Positions 10,418 through 17,181 of a stretch of DNA of 64,000 nt are shown in pieces. Made by a program: the position numbers and the translations under genes. The notes beneath the pieces are model-generated. The model did not search any database, had not been told where the DNA came from, and was given only the letters and a program-made list of their open reading frames with translations. Each line of letters opens with the position of its first letter. Within the stretch, counting starts at the first letter, position 1. Origin of the DNA: Candidatus Fermentibacteraceae bacterium (GTDB taxonomy: Bacteria > Fermentibacterota > Fermentibacteria > Fermentibacterales > JCC-6); NCBI GenBank assembly GCA_027067855.1, contig JAMOUX010000026.1, positions 142,473 to 206,472 on the forward strand, in the 5' to 3' direction.

Positions 10418-11221
10418 ATGAAAATATTGATATCTTTTTTGATCATTGCGGCGGTGTCGGCATACGCTGATGATGTCTCCGAGACCTTTCATGCGGAAAC
10501 TCCCCGGGAATTCGCCGCGCATTCCGGCGGTCCCGTATGGAACGGCCCCAAGAACGTATTATTCCACAACGGCCCCTGGAAGAACCGTGACGGAACCGGT
10601 TGGCACGGATCGGACGAGTCCATCATGCAGGATTGGGCAACCACCTACGGTTACAGCTTCCAGAAGACCAAAAAATACATGCTTGCCGACGATTTCGAGA
10701 TACCTGCAGGGGAAACATGGACCATCGAATCCATAACCTTCGCCGGTTACCAGACCGGTTCCGGCACGTCGTCCACCATAAACGGTATGTTTGTGGTCGT
10801 GTACGACGACCCTCCCACCACGGGTACCGTAGTCGCCGGAGATATTTCCGCCAACATCTTCACCAGTTCCCAATGGACCCAGATATACAGGGTGGCGGAC
10901 AGCACCTCCGGTTCCAATTCCGACAGGCCCATAATGGCCAATACCGCCGTTCTCTCCGAGCCGTGGGTACTGGATGATGGAACTTACTGGATAAGCATAC
11001 AGGCCGACGGTACCATTTCGCCCGGTCCGTATCATCCCCCGGTGGTTATATGGGACCAGCGGAATACCGGTAACGCCATCCGGAGCGTTGACGGCGGGGT
11101 GATCTGGAGACCCGTCAGCAACAACGGATATGCACAGGGATTGTGCATAGTCCTCGAGGGTACCACCGGTGGAGGCGCCCTGGAACAGGAGACCTGGGGT
11201 GCCATAAAGGGCTTGTTCTAG
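10418..11221 (+). CDS. secreted protein of unknown function with W-x-x-I-K tail
   Basis: 267 residues. MKILISFLIIAAVSAYA is a signal peptide with a probable cleavage after AYA. The mature part is rich in Gly, Thr, Trp and Tyr and reads like an extracellular beta-sandwich (KYMLADDFEIPAGETWTI, then YWISIQADG). Many bacterial surface proteins with similar stretches are uncharacterised, and I assign no function. The C-terminus ends EQETWGAIKGLF, closely resembling the end of the next gene's product (NSWAFIKAFVQ). The start has GAGAGGGG upstream. A terminator follows at 11241-11269, so the gene is probably transcribed alone. Confidence 0.8.
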   Translation: MKILISFLIIAAVSAYADDVSETFHAETPREFAAHSGGPVWNGPKNVLFHNGPWKNRDGTGWHGSDESIMQDWATTYGYSFQKTKKYMLADDFEIPAGETWTIESITFAGYQTGSGTSSTINGMFVVVYDDPPTTGTVVAGDISANIFTSSQWTQIYRVADSTSGSNSDRPIMANTAVLSEPWVLDDGTYWISIQADGTISPGPYHPPVVIWDQRNTGNAIRSVDGGVIWRPVSNNGYAQGLCIVLEGTTGGGALEQETWGAIKGLF

Positions 11222-11240
11222 CGATACTCGCTGCAAATGA

Positions 11241-11269
11241 AGGGGGCGCGGTGACCCGCGTCCCTTTTT
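11241..11269 (+). terminator. rho-independent terminator
   Basis: GGGGGCGCGG and CCGCGTCCC form a GC-rich stem with a short TGAC-type loop, followed by TTTTT (11265-11269). It lies 20 bases after the stop of the secreted-protein gene at 11221. Confidence 0.85.
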
Positions 11270-11293
11270 CGCATGCCGGTGGTTCTTTCCGTG

Positions 11294-11322
11294 TTGACAC
11301 GGGAGGTAGCCCGGGGTAAAAT
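11294..11322 (+). promoter_or_regulatory. sigma70-type promoter
   Basis: TTGACA (11294-11299, 6/6) and TAAAAT (11317-11322, 5/6) are separated by exactly 17 bases. The site lies 29 bases before the lamin-tail gene start and just downstream of a terminator. It is the best-matching promoter in the window and probably drives 11352-13973. Confidence 0.8.
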
Positions 11323-11351
11323 TCAAAAAGGTATTTCAGTTGGAGGTTGGA

Positions 11352-11948
11352 ATGACTGTTTTACTCGCACTGCTGATCACGGCCCAGGTTCCTCTCGGTG
11401 AGAACGGGGCCCGGGTTTCATCCAGCGGCGTGGTAATAAACGAATTCATGTCTCTTCCGTTGAGTTCCACCACCGAGGCGGACGGAGAGTGGGTAGAGCT
11501 GTTCAACAATACGGACGAGTGGATAAATCTCTCCGGATGGAAACTTTCCAGCGGTTACGGTCAGGAAGTGGTCCTGGCTACGTATCTGCTTCCTCCTCAC
11601 GGTTATTTCGTTCTTGCGGGTTGTACCGATTCGGCCCGGAACGGCGGTCTCGACGCGAACCAGGTTCTGGGAGACTGCAGGATTCACGAAAGCGGTTCCC
11701 TGACCCTCAAGGACAATTACGACAGGACCATGGATCACATCGACTACAATGCTTCCTGGCCGGTGACTCCCGGTGTTTCATGCGAGAAGATGAATCCGGG
11801 ATGGGTTTCATGCAGTTCCTCCAGTTGGAACCTGAGCACCAGCGTGTATGGCCGGGGAGACAAAGGTACCCCGGGAAACCAGAACAGCATCTATCAGAAT
11901 TCCTTCGCCCAGAACAGCTGGGCTTTCATAAAGGCTTTCGTACAGTAG
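11352..11948 (+). CDS. secreted lamin-tail-domain protein with W-x-x-I-K tail
   Basis: 198 residues from ATG 11352 (GGAGG 5 bases upstream; the TTG at 11340 precedes the ribosome-binding site). A short hydrophobic signal MTVLLALLITAQ precedes a lamin-tail (LTD) domain with VVINEFMS, GEWVELFNNTD and INLSGWKLSSG, then GYFVLAG and TPGNQNS. LTD domains are extracellular beta-sandwiches often linked to secreted nucleases or metallo-beta-lactamase hydrolases. The next gene, 7 bases downstream, encodes exactly such a hydrolase. The C-terminus QNSWAFIKAFVQ matches the tail of the 10418-11221 product. Probably an exported binding module. Confidence 0.88.
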   Translation: MTVLLALLITAQVPLGENGARVSSSGVVINEFMSLPLSSTTEADGEWVELFNNTDEWINLSGWKLSSGYGQEVVLATYLLPPHGYFVLAGCTDSARNGGLDANQVLGDCRIHESGSLTLKDNYDRTMDHIDYNASWPVTPGVSCEKMNPGWVSCSSSSWNLSTSVYGRGDKGTPGNQNSIYQNSFAQNSWAFIKAFVQ

Positions 11949-11955
11949 ACTTCCG

Positions 11956-13119
11956 TTGAAAAATCTGAAAACCTTTCTTCTCCTGTCCGCCTGCATGGTT
12001 TCAGTTCCGTATGCATGGGCCCGGGAACCCCTGGTGGTTTTCTTCATAGATCCGTCCTACGACCGGTATTCCGGCGACGCTATGCTGGTATGTACTCCCG
12101 GAGGCAGGCATTACGTCATCGACGGCGGTATGATGAATGCCGGGTACCCTTCGTGGGATTGCGGCGAAGAAAGAATCCTCCCGATCCTGGACAGCCTGGG
12201 AGTCACGTTAGTGGACGGTGTGGTAGGCACTCATCCCGACGCGGACCACGTGGGGGGATTGATATCGGTTTACCGATCAATGCCGGTGGGAACCGCCTAC
12301 GATTCCGGCTGGCCTTACGGTGGAACGTGGATCTACCGGAATTACCTGGAAGCCATATGGGACAACGGCGCGAATTTCGTGACACCCAGGCGGGGAGACG
12401 TGCTCAACTGGGGCCCGGAACTGCAGGTGGAAGTGCTCCACCCGACGAAACGCCTTTCCCAGTCCAATACCAACAATGCTTCACTGGTCATCAGGCTTAC
12501 CTATGGAGAGACGACGTTCCTGTTCACCGGGGATCTGGAAACCGAAGGAGGGGAAGACGCGGTTCTTGCCGCACTCGGTACGGGAGAGATAAAAAACATT
12601 TCAGCCGATGTGCTGAAAATCGCGCACCACGGTTCCGCCTCTTCCACATGTCCGCAGTGGCTCGATGCGGTGAATCCCGCCATCGCCGCGATATGCGTCG
12701 GATCCGGCAATCCCTATGGACATCCCTCGAAGGAGATACTTCAACTGTTGGAGGCGAACGGCGTGGAGGTCTGCAGGACGGACCTCATCGGTACCTTCTA
12801 CATATCTACCGACGGGAAGAACATATACGTAAACGAGATGCCGCCGGAAGGGTCGGGACGAGCCGATGATTTCATCGTCTATCCCAGCCCGGCGGTTTCC
12901 ACCGTAAACTTCGCCTCCGACGCGGGTTCGGACAGGGTAAGGGAAATATCCGTCTACAATCTTAACGGGGAGAGGGTCATGTATGTGGAGAATCCCGGCG
13001 AACTTCACACCTGGGATCTGCGGGTGCCGGGAGGTTTCGCGTCGCCCGGGCTTTATGCGGCGGTGTTCACCACTTACGGAGGTGAAAGTTGCAGGGTGTA
13101 TTTCACCATCTGTCGCTGA
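11956..13119 (+). CDS. secreted ComEC-like metallo-beta-lactamase with C-terminal sorting-like domain
   Basis: 387 residues from TTG 11956, 7 bases after the lamin-tail gene. The signal peptide ends near VPYAWA. The metallo-beta-lactamase core carries the metal motif THPDADHVGG, later FLFTGDLE and KIAHHGS, the pattern of the ComEC C-terminal hydrolase domain. Residues from about 300 (DDFIVYPSPAVSTVNF, ISVYNLNGERV, GLYAAVFT) resemble the T9SS type A or FlgD-like C-terminal domain of exported FCB-group proteins. Probably an extracellular or surface phosphodiesterase or nuclease. Without a ComEC channel domain it cannot itself transport DNA. The 3' end overlaps the next gene by 31 bases. Confidence 0.88.
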   Translation: MKNLKTFLLLSACMVSVPYAWAREPLVVFFIDPSYDRYSGDAMLVCTPGGRHYVIDGGMMNAGYPSWDCGEERILPILDSLGVTLVDGVVGTHPDADHVGGLISVYRSMPVGTAYDSGWPYGGTWIYRNYLEAIWDNGANFVTPRRGDVLNWGPELQVEVLHPTKRLSQSNTNNASLVIRLTYGETTFLFTGDLETEGGEDAVLAALGTGEIKNISADVLKIAHHGSASSTCPQWLDAVNPAIAAICVGSGNPYGHPSKEILQLLEANGVEVCRTDLIGTFYISTDGKNIYVNEMPPEGSGRADDFIVYPSPAVSTVNFASDAGSDRVREISVYNLNGERVMYVENPGELHTWDLRVPGGFASPGLYAAVFTTYGGESCRVYFTICR

Positions 13120-13973
13120 TTTTAATCATCGCCGCCGCGGCGCCGGCCTCTGTGGGGACCGCGGATCTGCTGGTACTTTCATCACCGGGTTTTCCATCGG
13201 TGATGATGCTGGGACCGGGTGGTTCGGCTTTGTGCGAAGGGCCGGAAGCTTCTTCCGGAAATCCCGCGTTGATAACCACCGGATTTACCGCCGCCGGGGG
13301 AAAGTGGAACCTGGGAACGACGGCGGTTTCCACCGCCGCCGGATTCCGGGTCCAGGGTATGGATATGAGCGTTTCGGTCAGAACGCTGGGCAGGGCGAAT
13401 ATCATTCGACGTGACGCTTCCGGAGAGGCCACCGGCGGGTATTCCTATTCCACCGGTTCCATGGTCGCCGGCTTGTCCTTTGCCGTTCTGCCGTGGCTCC
13501 GGGCCGGGCTCGCGGCAGGAACTGCGTGGGAGAAGGTAGACTACGAGGAAGGAATGGGACCCGTATTTTCCGCGGGTCTTGCCTTTACTCCATCCGGGTT
13601 TTTCCGGGCCGGGCTTGCCGTGGACGGCTTGGGAAATTCCCCCGATTGGAACGGTATACACAAGGCCATGCCGGTAAGAATTTCCATGGCTGCCGCGGTT
13701 TTCCCGTTCACGTTCGCCGCTTTCTTCGCGGGCGCTTCCGAGGGTTTGAACACAACGGGTTCATTCGGCGGAGGCGCCGTCTTTTCATTGGCTGATATGG
13801 AGATTTCCGGAGGTTACGGTTTCTCTCCCGGCGAAGCGGAGATTTCCGGTTTCTTCGCCGGGCTGCGGTACTCGTACGGTTCCCGGAAAACCTACGTGGT
13901 CGAACTGTCCTGCGCGGAGAGACACGATCTTTCCCGGCCGGTCATGGCCGGCTTGTCCGTGAGGTTCAGGTAA
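13089..13973 (+). CDS. PorV/PorQ-like outer-membrane beta-barrel protein (putative)
   Basis: 294 residues from TTG 13089, which has GGAGGTGAA upstream. A hydrophobic signal (LILIIAAAAPASVGTA) is followed by alternating amphipathic strands rich in Gly, Ala, Phe and Tyr and ending in SVRFR. GPGGSALCEGPEASSGNPA resembles the start of PorV/PorQ/UPF0164-type barrels, which often read ...NPA.... The gene overlaps the sorting-domain protein upstream by 31 bases and is probably cotranscribed with it. A role in exporting or anchoring that protein is inference. No enzymatic motif seen. Confidence 0.7.
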   Translation: MQGVFHHLSLILIIAAAAPASVGTADLLVLSSPGFPSVMMLGPGGSALCEGPEASSGNPALITTGFTAAGGKWNLGTTAVSTAAGFRVQGMDMSVSVRTLGRANIIRRDASGEATGGYSYSTGSMVAGLSFAVLPWLRAGLAAGTAWEKVDYEEGMGPVFSAGLAFTPSGFFRAGLAVDGLGNSPDWNGIHKAMPVRISMAAAVFPFTFAAFFAGASEGLNTTGSFGGGAVFSLADMEISGGYGFSPGEAEISGFFAGLRYSYGSRKTYVVELSCAERHDLSRPVMAGLSVRFR

Positions 13974-14515: not shown

Positions 14516-16012
14516 TCAAAATTCGTAATCGAGTTGAAACCCGGTTTTGGTCCGGGAGTTTCCCAAGGTTTCCTCCCACCCGGTTCCCATGGAGGATACG
14601 CCTTCCGCGGTATGCCGGGAGACGCATAACCTCAGGGTCAGGTATTCGGAGGTTTTTACGGTTAAACCGCAGAAGAGGAGGAGCATTTTGCCGTACAGGG
14701 CGGTGGCTCCGAATTCACCGGGAAACCGGCAGTTTCCGGCATAGATCCGGGAATTGTAACCATCGGTGGAACATGCGGCGCCTCCCATATCTATTCCGGT
14801 AGTTGTCCATGGTTTCAGGGATACTCTGATCTCCACTCCCGAACCGGTTTCCGTGGAATCGGGTTCCGAGGTTTTCCAGTGAGTGAATCTCGTTTTCTCG
14901 CGGACTGAGATCATGGAGTGAGGTCTCCAGGTTATTCTTGCCCATCCCCTGCCGACGGATTCCTCGTTTCCGATCCTCGCCTTCATTCCCAGGGATCCTT
15001 CCAGTCCTTCCGCCAGCCTCCTTGAGAAGCTTCCGGTCCCGCAGATCATGTCATCATCCTTTTCGAAGTATACCCCGCATCCCATTTCCAGCACACCGCG
15101 GGAGGCGGTTCCCCATCTGGCGGCGATCACAGCCCCGAGGTCGCACGTTCTCGATATGGGGGATGACGAGCGTTGCCGCGGGAAATTCTCCGGGTTGCGC
15201 AGCAGTATGAAAGAACTCCTGAAAGAGTTCCCCCGGTACGAGATCGAATTCCAGAAAGACGCGGACGTTCCACCGGAATCCATTCCCAGGGAAAGTTCCC
15301 CGGAAAGCCCGAAGGAAGCAACCGGTACCGACCAGTCCAGTCCGCACCTGGTCCATTCCTCGGTGCCGGTTCCGTTTCTCCTGCCGGTCGTCAATGCCAG
15401 ACCGGCCCTGTCGACCGATACCCTGGTGACTCCCAGGAGTTCGCCCACCGTTCCCCTGGCATCCACCTGGGAGGCGGTACGATGGTAGCCGCCGCCGATG
15501 GAATCCAACCTGGAGTATGCTGCCAGCAAGGCGAACTCCACGTTTCCCAGGCCGATTACACATCCGGCTCCCGTGAGAGGTTCCTCCCTGCATGTCCGGG
15601 AGGAGGAAGCGGGGCGTATCCTGTTACCGGTTGCGGGAGGTTTGTACATCGTGAATTCGCTTGGATCAGTCAATTTGTCACCGGCGGAGAAAACCGTTCC
15701 GGGACCCAGCCGGGCCCGCAACCAACCGGCAGCCACATTACCGGACTTACCCGGAAAATCCCGGAGATTGATACCTCCCGCCGTAACGTCTCCCCACTCT
15801 TCCCCCCCGGATTTGTCGGTGAACACCACCAGGTCCAGTTTCTTCAGGGAGAATCTTGATCTGCCGAAAAAGTCCCAGGAATCACCGACGTAGTAGTGTT
15901 CCAGTATTCCCTTGGGGGCCGGGAAATTACATCGTATTCTCCATCTCGTGTCACCTTGCACGGTCCCTGTCGCCTGGGCCGCCAGAAACATGAAGATCAG
16001 GAAATGTTTCAC
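14516..16012 (-). CDS. large barrel-like secreted protein, unknown
   Basis: 498 residues. The signal peptide MKHFLIFMFLAAQATGTVQG precedes a body of repeated short amphipathic strands (for example GLALTTGRRNGTGTEEWT) with many Gly, Ser, Arg and aromatic residues. It ends in FQLDYEF, a terminal Phe typical of outer-membrane barrels. ATG 16012 overlaps the stop of the helix-hairpin-helix barrel gene upstream (ATGA), so the two are coupled. No catalytic motif or named family recognised. Confidence 0.7.
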   Translation of the reverse strand: MKHFLIFMFLAAQATGTVQGDTRWRIRCNFPAPKGILEHYYVGDSWDFFGRSRFSLKKLDLVVFTDKSGGEEWGDVTAGGINLRDFPGKSGNVAAGWLRARLGPGTVFSAGDKLTDPSEFTMYKPPATGNRIRPASSSRTCREEPLTGAGCVIGLGNVEFALLAAYSRLDSIGGGYHRTASQVDARGTVGELLGVTRVSVDRAGLALTTGRRNGTGTEEWTRCGLDWSVPVASFGLSGELSLGMDSGGTSASFWNSISYRGNSFRSSFILLRNPENFPRQRSSSPISRTCDLGAVIAARWGTASRGVLEMGCGVYFEKDDDMICGTGSFSRRLAEGLEGSLGMKARIGNEESVGRGWARITWRPHSMISVREKTRFTHWKTSEPDSTETGSGVEIRVSLKPWTTTGIDMGGAACSTDGYNSRIYAGNCRFPGEFGATALYGKMLLLFCGLTVKTSEYLTLRLCVSRHTAEGVSSMGTGWEETLGNSRTKTGFQLDYEF

Positions 16013-17061
16013 CGAACCTCCAGGTATTCCTTCATGGTTTCCAGCAGTACGGGTCCTATACCCGGAACATCGGACAGATCATTGATGGAGTCTACCGGGC
16101 CGTTAATACGTATCCAGGCGGCTATGGCCGCGGCTTTCGCGGGACCGATTCCCGGAACTGCGGTGAGTTGTTCCTCGGTGGCGGTGTTGACGTTCAGTGG
16201 GAAGCGATTCTCTTCTTCCGCTTCCGTTCCGCTTTCGAAAGTTTCCGGTTCGCAACCGCATTCACCCCACGACACGGATACGGAATGGGTGGGGGGAAGG
16301 GATGAGTGTTCTCCGTAGCCGTATTGAAGGGAGAAAGGGGAAACGGTAAATTCCACGGCGGCCCAGAACCTGGCCGGGGAACTCCTGAGTCCGGTGGCCA
16401 GGGATATGAAGCGGGCGGGAGAGAATTCCGTGTGAATGGCGTATTCCATGCCGGCGTATTCCTGCCACGCCGCTCCCACGGCCAGAACTACATCTTTCAC
16501 GGGAACGGCTCCCAAGGCGAATTCGAGGGAGCGGGGCGCCGCCGGATCTCCCGAGGAACCCAACCGGGAGCGTACCACCCCCCGGACGAGGCCCGTGGAG
16601 TAGATTCCCGGCATGGGAGACCAGATGGTGGAAAGGTTTACGTAGGCTCCCGGCGCGTCACCGTAACCGCGGATGTGCAGGTCGCCCAGGGAAGCGCCGA
16701 TTCCGGCGGCCATTCCCGGGAAGAGTTTCCAGGACCAGGCGGCGTCTACGGATTTCTCGGAATAGGTGGCGTCACCGGTGTAGGAGAACATTAGGCCGCA
16801 GGCCCAGGAATCCGAAATGAGGCAGCCCGCGACCGCTCCCCGGTCAAGCCTGCGAAGCCCGAAGGGCCTGGATGCGGAGATTGATACTCCCCGCTTCTCC
16901 AGCATCGCGACGGAAGCGGGATTGTGCCTGATGGAGAGCGGTCCCCCCGGGAACAGCGAAGAAGCTATTCCCCCTTGCAGCCAGGGAGATTCCGGTACCG
17001 GTTCGAATGCCGCCATGACCGGCATCGAAACGGAAAGTACCAGCAGTATGAATTTACCCAT
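16009..17061 (-). CDS. barrel-like outer-membrane protein with C-terminal ComEA-type helix-hairpin-helix
   Basis: 350 residues from ATG 17061, where the signal peptide MGKFILLVLSVSMPVMA begins; an in-frame start at 17112 only adds a charged leader. Residues 25-275 are PorV/UPF0164-like (SIRHNPASVAML, then many beta strands). Residues 285-350 form a double helix-hairpin-helix: LNVNTATEEQLTAVPGIG, KAAAIAAWI, then DLSDVPGIGPVLLE. This is the DNA-binding fold of the competence receptor ComEA. A HhH tail on a barrel would face the periplasm if the barrel inserts normally. First gene of an operon with 14516-16012 and dCMP deaminase. Confidence 0.82.
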   Translation of the reverse strand: MGKFILLVLSVSMPVMAAFEPVPESPWLQGGIASSLFPGGPLSIRHNPASVAMLEKRGVSISASRPFGLRRLDRGAVAGCLISDSWACGLMFSYTGDATYSEKSVDAAWSWKLFPGMAAGIGASLGDLHIRGYGDAPGAYVNLSTIWSPMPGIYSTGLVRGVVRSRLGSSGDPAAPRSLEFALGAVPVKDVVLAVGAAWQEYAGMEYAIHTEFSPARFISLATGLRSSPARFWAAVEFTVSPFSLQYGYGEHSSLPPTHSVSVSWGECGCEPETFESGTEAEEENRFPLNVNTATEEQLTAVPGIGPAKAAAIAAWIRINGPVDSINDLSDVPGIGPVLLETMKEYLEVR

Positions 17062-17067
17062 ACCGAA

Positions 17068-17096
17068 AGTGTAGTTCAGTTTCGCGATGATTTCAA
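17068..17096 (-). promoter_or_regulatory. promoter giving an apparently leaderless transcript
   Basis: On the minus strand TTGAAA (17096-17091) and TACACT (17073-17068) are spaced by 17 bases, matching 5/6 and 4/6 consensus positions. The start codon at 17061-17059 lies where transcription would begin, about 7 bases after the -10. No Shine-Dalgarno sequence precedes the ATG. Confidence 0.55.
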
Positions 17097-17181
17097 GTGC
17101 CGAGGTTGACAATTACTCCCGAATGGACCAATCTACCGTATTGAATAATTTTTTCTGGAACTCACTTTTGGGAAAGGCCTG

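Follow-up and report, generated by a model that had tools for sequence, protein, structure and literature searches.

The window analysed here is a stretch of 64,000 nucleotides from a Candidatus Fermentibacteraceae bacterium, in which two consecutive genes encode proteins with a common short ending and are followed by genes for a ComEC-like protein and a predicted outer-membrane barrel (Table 1). The first protein begins with a predicted signal peptide, MKILISFLIIAAVSA ahead of YADDV, and its final residues are ALEQETWGAIKGLF; the second, a lamin-tail-domain (LTD) protein, finishes with NSFAQNSWAFIKAFVQ, and a stop codon follows in both. The translations confirm the two endings given in an earlier note on this DNA, and its statement that the proteins are unrelated agrees with their placement in separate BLAST clusters, so that the shared tail does not reflect common descent of the whole proteins. 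Both had also been described there as exported, which holds for the first by its signal peptide; our heuristic misses the second, where no basic residue precedes the hydrophobic stretch, although the N-terminus is still hydrophobic.

Table 1. Features of the window around the two tail genes
Feature	Position	Strand	Remarks
Exported protein 1 with tail	10418..11221	+	267 aa; no Pfam/NCBIfam match
Tail 1, LEQETWGAIKGLF	11180..11218	+	stop directly after
Lamin-tail-domain protein with tail	11340..11948	+	202 aa; PF00932, E 8.8e-13
Tail 2, FAQNSWAFIKAFVQ	11904..11945	+	stop directly after
ComEC-like metallo-beta-lactamase-fold protein	11956..13119	+	separate exported protein; no WGxIK tail
Predicted outer-membrane barrel, FadL/PorV-like fold	13089..13973	+	14 strands; syntenic with tail genes in the order
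Second exported protein	14516..16012	-	adjoins the gene below
Exported protein with ComEA-like region	16009..17112	-	C-terminal helix-hairpin-helix region (TIGR01259, E 1.5e-15)

In our genome set G000 is the window's own genome, and G001 and similar names are handles of the compared genomes. Two homologues of the first protein in the relative G001 (61 and 53% identical) both have the same tail, and orthologues of the LTD protein keep theirs in G001, G002, G039 and G040, with an AFVE ending in G002. The LTD, metallo-beta-lactamase-fold and barrel genes stay close together in most of the related stretches examined, in some of which one of the three was missed by the ORF filter. The ComEC-like protein has a weak type A domain of the type IX secretion system (T9SS), below threshold at 18.9 bits vs. 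a cut-off of 23. For the barrel protein, AlphaFold gives a FadL-like barrel (pLDDT 73.5), for which Foldseek ranks OmpG first and also finds FadL (3pgr, TMq 0.66) and the PorV chain of the T9SS translocon (6h3i_F, TMq 0.65). It has no Pfam or PorV-profile match, the PorV matches of this genome being on other contigs, and a sequence-profile search of the PDB gave nothing. The barrel is no more than a candidate partner of the tail proteins.

The two exported proteins on the opposite strand are also kept near tail genes in relatives. The ComEA-like protein, together with the secreted ComEC-like one, suggests DNA handling at the cell surface.

The tail, its position and its carriers

The consensus of the tail is L/V-x-x-x-[ST]-W-[GA]-x-[IV]-K-x-x-[FY], with 0 or 1 additional residue (often R) before the stop, and it is placed on a short linker after a folded domain. 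Tail 1 fits it in L at -5, [ST] at -1, W, [GA], I, K and F. The relative G001 was sampled in 20 stretches picked around pattern matches (379,757 bases, 343 ORFs), where the motif W[GA]x[IVL]K ends 3 (16 cases) or 4 (8 cases) residues before the stop in 24 of 27 occurrences; the remaining three lie 8, 61 and 691 residues from the stop and count as background, since the regions were selected around tail matches. All 24 tails have the I and the K, with [ST] at -1 in 24/24, L at -5 in 22/24 and F at +7 in 14/24. A few tail variants occur, e.g. STFGGIKALLGS.

Signal peptides, called by a home-made heuristic, are predicted for 19 of the 24 G001 tail ORFs vs. 74 of the 319 other ORFs (Fisher P 4.9e-8), and at least two of the five tail ORFs without one look like start-site or frame problems. 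The enrichment among exported proteins that the earlier note proposed to look for is thus found in relatives and is not significant in the window's own genome. One G001 tail protein (L089:9388-10159, + strand) is apparently split in two overlapping frames, with the signal peptide on the first, apparently by a frameshift or an assembly error. Domains found on tail proteins include LTD, beta-helix, PKD, FG-GAP and the NCBIfam "choice-of-anchor" domains E and J, as well as a weak choice-of-anchor R (E 0.013). Choice-of-anchor domains elsewhere bear differing sorting tags.

Taken by itself, the window's own genome has too few matches to show a significant enrichment. Unanchored W[GA]xIK gives 6 matches vs. 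4 for the reversed control; in four of these the motif is close to where an open frame ends, with 3, 4, 4 and 14 residues after K, the third of these being a contig-edge fragment that ends ESWGTIKGLYR and the fourth reading RHDTWAGIKY plus 13 further residues. The stop-anchored tail gives 3 matches vs. 2 in the reversed control, which is not significant, and loosening the motif to Wxx[IVLM]K, followed by a stop at most 18 bases on, yields 163 matches, fewer than the 299 of the control. At L003 in this genome (G000:C8, ~12740, - strand) the protein end reads RHDTWAGIKYTSCGHGEGSDTSF, the tail motif plus extra residues, at a point where a G001 protein ends STWAGIKYSF; it is possibly a decayed or extended tail.

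The picture is different in the order, where the tail lies far above chance. The stop-anchored tail has 904 matches vs. 129 for the reversed control in 42 genomes including the window's own, and a tighter pattern is positive in all 42, mostly with 2-23 matches each (one in G024) vs. 0-1 in the control. The ORFs retrieved are varied exported proteins sharing one ending. The non-significant counts in the window's own genome would agree with chance, and a common ending could also be inherited as the C-terminus of one protein family, but we give this explanation next to no credence. Chance is contradicted by the order counts, and inheritance from a single family by the occurrence of the tail in several unrelated families, with a mean column identity of 17 and 9% in two mixed sets; the end-position data from G001 and the scan of 385 genomes described below likewise refute chance and simple inheritance.

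The tighter stop-anchored pattern was run on 385 genomes, 42 in the order and 343 outside it. It is abundant in unrelated families with near-zero controls (57 matches in G251, 41 in G380, 39 in G161 and 24 in G066), and the tails outside the order usually carry one extra final residue, often R. Unanchored W[GA]x[IVL]K was counted in six genomes of other phyla, giving 46 vs. 5 in G110, 59 vs. 42 in G175 and 43 vs. 47 in G312; the little or no excess in the latter two indicates that stop anchoring is required.

A scan of named species with [ST]WGxIK[ASTG]x[FY]R-stop gave at least 126 matches in at least 119 stretches, all at the end of an open frame, as the stop belongs to the pattern. Among the matches listed, a signal peptide is predicted in 99 of the 107 tail ORFs with a complete upstream frame, and the named group seen most often in the record titles is Candidatus Eisenbacteria; Krumholzibacteriia, Effluviviaceae, Latescibacterota, Zixibacteria, Gemmatimonadota-labelled MAGs, Fermentibacteraceae, Ignavibacteria, Melioribacter, Caldithrix, Delongbacteria and Hymenobacter are also among them. 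The stricter tail is abundant in Effluviviaceae (38 per named genome), Latescibacterota (30), Eisenbacteria (10, 19 and 21) and Krumholzibacteriia (21 and 5). Fermentibacteraceae has 14, Melioribacter 3 (one seen as a real tail), and five Hymenobacter, Caldithrix, Ignavibacterium, Zixibacteria and Delongbacteria one each, against a reversed-control total of 2. The tail protein of Fermentibacteraceae and the style of its tail agree with those found in the window's order, which is probably Fermentibacterales.

Many genomes with low counts have the tail on a small, exported FnIII-like protein, which is single-copy in Ignavibacteria, Caldithrix, Zixibacteria, Delongbacteria and cultured Hymenobacter and is without a Pfam family of its own. 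The family consists of L137:9639-10034 and 23 homologues; in the alignment of these 24 (26-41% identity to the first) the tail keeps its W, G, I, K, F and R throughout, part of this invariance being fixed by collection via the tail pattern, and such conservation points to selection on the tail. AlphaFold models a confident beta-sandwich (block pLDDT mostly 94-98), then a linker and a C-terminal helix at residues 119-130 with pLDDT ~62. Because this helix follows the linker and lies outside the beta-sandwich, the tail looks like a free peptide and not a domain part in the model. Helix and strand could not be told apart by the helical moment of the tail, and a sequence-profile search of the PDB with the family gave weak matches (best E 0.014). 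A conserved neighbour of the FnIII-like gene as receptor was considered and rejected, since neighbours vary between lineages.

Relation of the tail to type IX secretion

A SprA profile was positive in 38 of the 42 genomes of the order and in 92 of the 343 outside it. All 18 out-of-order genomes with at least three tails are SprA-positive (background 92/343; hypergeometric P 1.4e-11), and none of the 251 SprA-negative ones has as many. Counted by family, with the total of ~245 families read from genome handles, 11 of 11 with at least three tails are SprA-positive vs. 67 overall (P 3e-7). The 50 out-of-order genomes with 1-2 pattern matches divide into 30 SprA-positive and 20 SprA-negative. Loci examined for 12 of the latter 20 held no convincing exported tail ORF (the frame at L132 has 64 residues), and 10 of 11 loci in SprA-positive low-count genomes did; the 1-2 matches in the 20 SprA-negative genomes appear to be mostly or all chance. 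By the pattern used, 44 of the 92 out-of-order SprA-positive genomes have no tail, which makes the tail nested within T9SS and not a universal part of it.

Genomes of the order hold from 19 to more than 100 type A domains each, and their numbers, which in the large genomes rest on the best 103 scored candidates, correlate with those of the tail (Spearman 0.76; 0.51 after removing genome size). As the reversed control correlates with type A numbers too (0.55), the relation is partly one of genome size. The tail and the known T9SS domains are mutually exclusive in the sets tested. None of 105 tail proteins (24 from G001 and 81 from named species) matches a type A, B or C domain: the type A models PF18962/TIGR04183 match 0 of the 24 and 0 of the 81, the type B model TIGR04131 and the ChiA-type NCBIfam models match no tail protein at E up to 0.1, and the best 25 of 26 Pfam families on the 81 include no T9SS domain. 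Conversely, 0 of 9 type A-like ORFs in G001 carry the tail. The set of 81 comprises those proteins among the matches listed whose frame is complete and for which a signal peptide is predicted, with FnIII-like ones removed (three more of these were left out of 84).

The phyla that bear the tail are mostly relatives of those that bear T9SS, and the co-occurrence with SprA could thus stem from shared ancestry. The tail might then be a surface or envelope docking tag that T9SS does not read, with a barrel, a surface-layer component or a lipid as receptor. The FnIII-like gene, which has no conserved neighbours across lineages and no conserved T9SS gene adjoining, would fit such a tag, as would the window's own genome, where tails are found and SprA is not detected. 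Against it stand the nesting of multi-copy tails within SprA-positive genomes over 11 families, the correlation of tail and type A numbers and the mutual exclusion of tail and type A domains, and we consider this docking tag a tentative and rather unlikely explanation. As for the window's own genome, rated 98.9% complete, neither SprA nor the product of its neighbour, an LptF-like gene, was matched (C2:44001-58000, L320). This genome has intact tails. It also has PorV and a PorU-like protein, and the neighbour of SprA is missing as well, so that an assembly gap is likely though unproven; use of this genome as a natural experiment in SprA loss was dropped on the same grounds.

Comparison with known signals and a proposed role

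Type A domains (PF18962, TIGR04183) resemble the tail in being C-terminal signals of Sec-exported proteins in the same genomes, with a conserved lysine near the end. They differ in being folded Ig-like domains of ~75 residues, whereas the tail has ~9-14 residues after a linker and contains W and I. According to excerpts of PMC10202324, efficient secretion requires the final 13 residues of type A domains as well as their lysines, and the last 22 residues of HBP35 are enough to secrete GFP; an excerpt of PMC10994853 places the type A domain inside the translocon, touching PorV. Type B (PF13585, TIGR04131) and type C (ChiA-type) domains are likewise alternative T9SS signals, but with ~100 residues (PMC10202324, in part) and no match among the 105 tail proteins they are unlike the tail. 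Type B signals use their own PorP/SprF shuttles, distinct shuttles reading distinct signals, as part of PMC12618676 describes.

The tail resembles LPXTG, PEP-CTERM and GlyGly-CTERM, which are short C-terminal sorting tags, each with its cognate processing enzyme, in being short, modular and attached to many exported proteins that are unrelated to one another. It is unlike them in having no transmembrane helix and no basic cluster, and no cognate peptidase was found beside the G001 tail genes. No hydrophobic helix was seen in the last 28 residues of tail ORFs when read by eye, CTERM domain models matched none of the 105 tail proteins, and where full-length models of rhombosortase- and myxosortase-dependent proteins gave weak matches, these fell outside the tag. 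The distinction from LPXTG, PEP-CTERM and the T9SS domain of the next protein drawn in the earlier note is thus upheld, and its idea of a sorting or anchoring signal gains support from the distribution and position of the tail; the associated peptidase family that it proposed to look for was not found, as no family recurs in the G001 tail-gene neighbourhoods. A periplasmic quality-control or chaperoning handle (a C-terminal degron or chaperone site) in place of an address would be consistent with this lack of an identified peptidase or receptor and with the fixed distance of the motif from the free C-terminus, a geometry of carboxylate-reading proteins. We find it improbable, as it leaves unexplained both the link to SprA and the preference for secreted-type beta-rich proteins.

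We therefore favour, with a probability of roughly 0.6, the reading that the tail is a C-terminal targeting signal on many unrelated Sec-exported proteins, most likely a compact one linked to T9SS. Widespread as it is on unrelated exported proteins in T9SS-bearing bacteria, the tail may be an undescribed T9SS address label. The Sec pathway would bring the tail protein to the periplasm, where the exposed tail, standing in for a folded type A, B or C domain and probably forming a short amphipathic helix, would be read together with the free C-terminus. It would be bound by outer-membrane parts of T9SS, either the SprA translocon or a shuttle of the FadL/PorV type, and the protein would then be brought to the cell surface or kept there. 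In this scheme recognition by T9SS, and hence dependence on it, is inferred, as are the helix, which is modelled with low confidence, the partner that binds the tail, the place where the protein ends up and the cleavage state.

Neither Pfam nor NCBIfam has a model that spans the tail, and no description of it was found in open-licence papers, where one tail string, and phylum names with type IX secretion where searched, gave no match; within this scope the tail is absent from literature and family libraries. We think it somewhat more probable than the contrary that it represents either a fourth class of T9SS signal, a C-terminal peptide of ~9-14 residues, or else, should T9SS not be its reader, a route of export or anchoring that has yet to be described. 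Such a fourth-class signal would be used tens of times by each genome in several candidate phyla and would persist on a single FnIII-like carrier in cultured lineages such as Hymenobacter, and these cultured carriers make its reading as a T9SS signal testable. How T9SS recognizes different C-terminal signals is listed as an open question in an excerpt of PMC10202324, and T9SS research would gain a minimal signal to test. If the proposal is true, the last ten residues would assign many exported proteins of poorly known phyla to a secretion or surface route.
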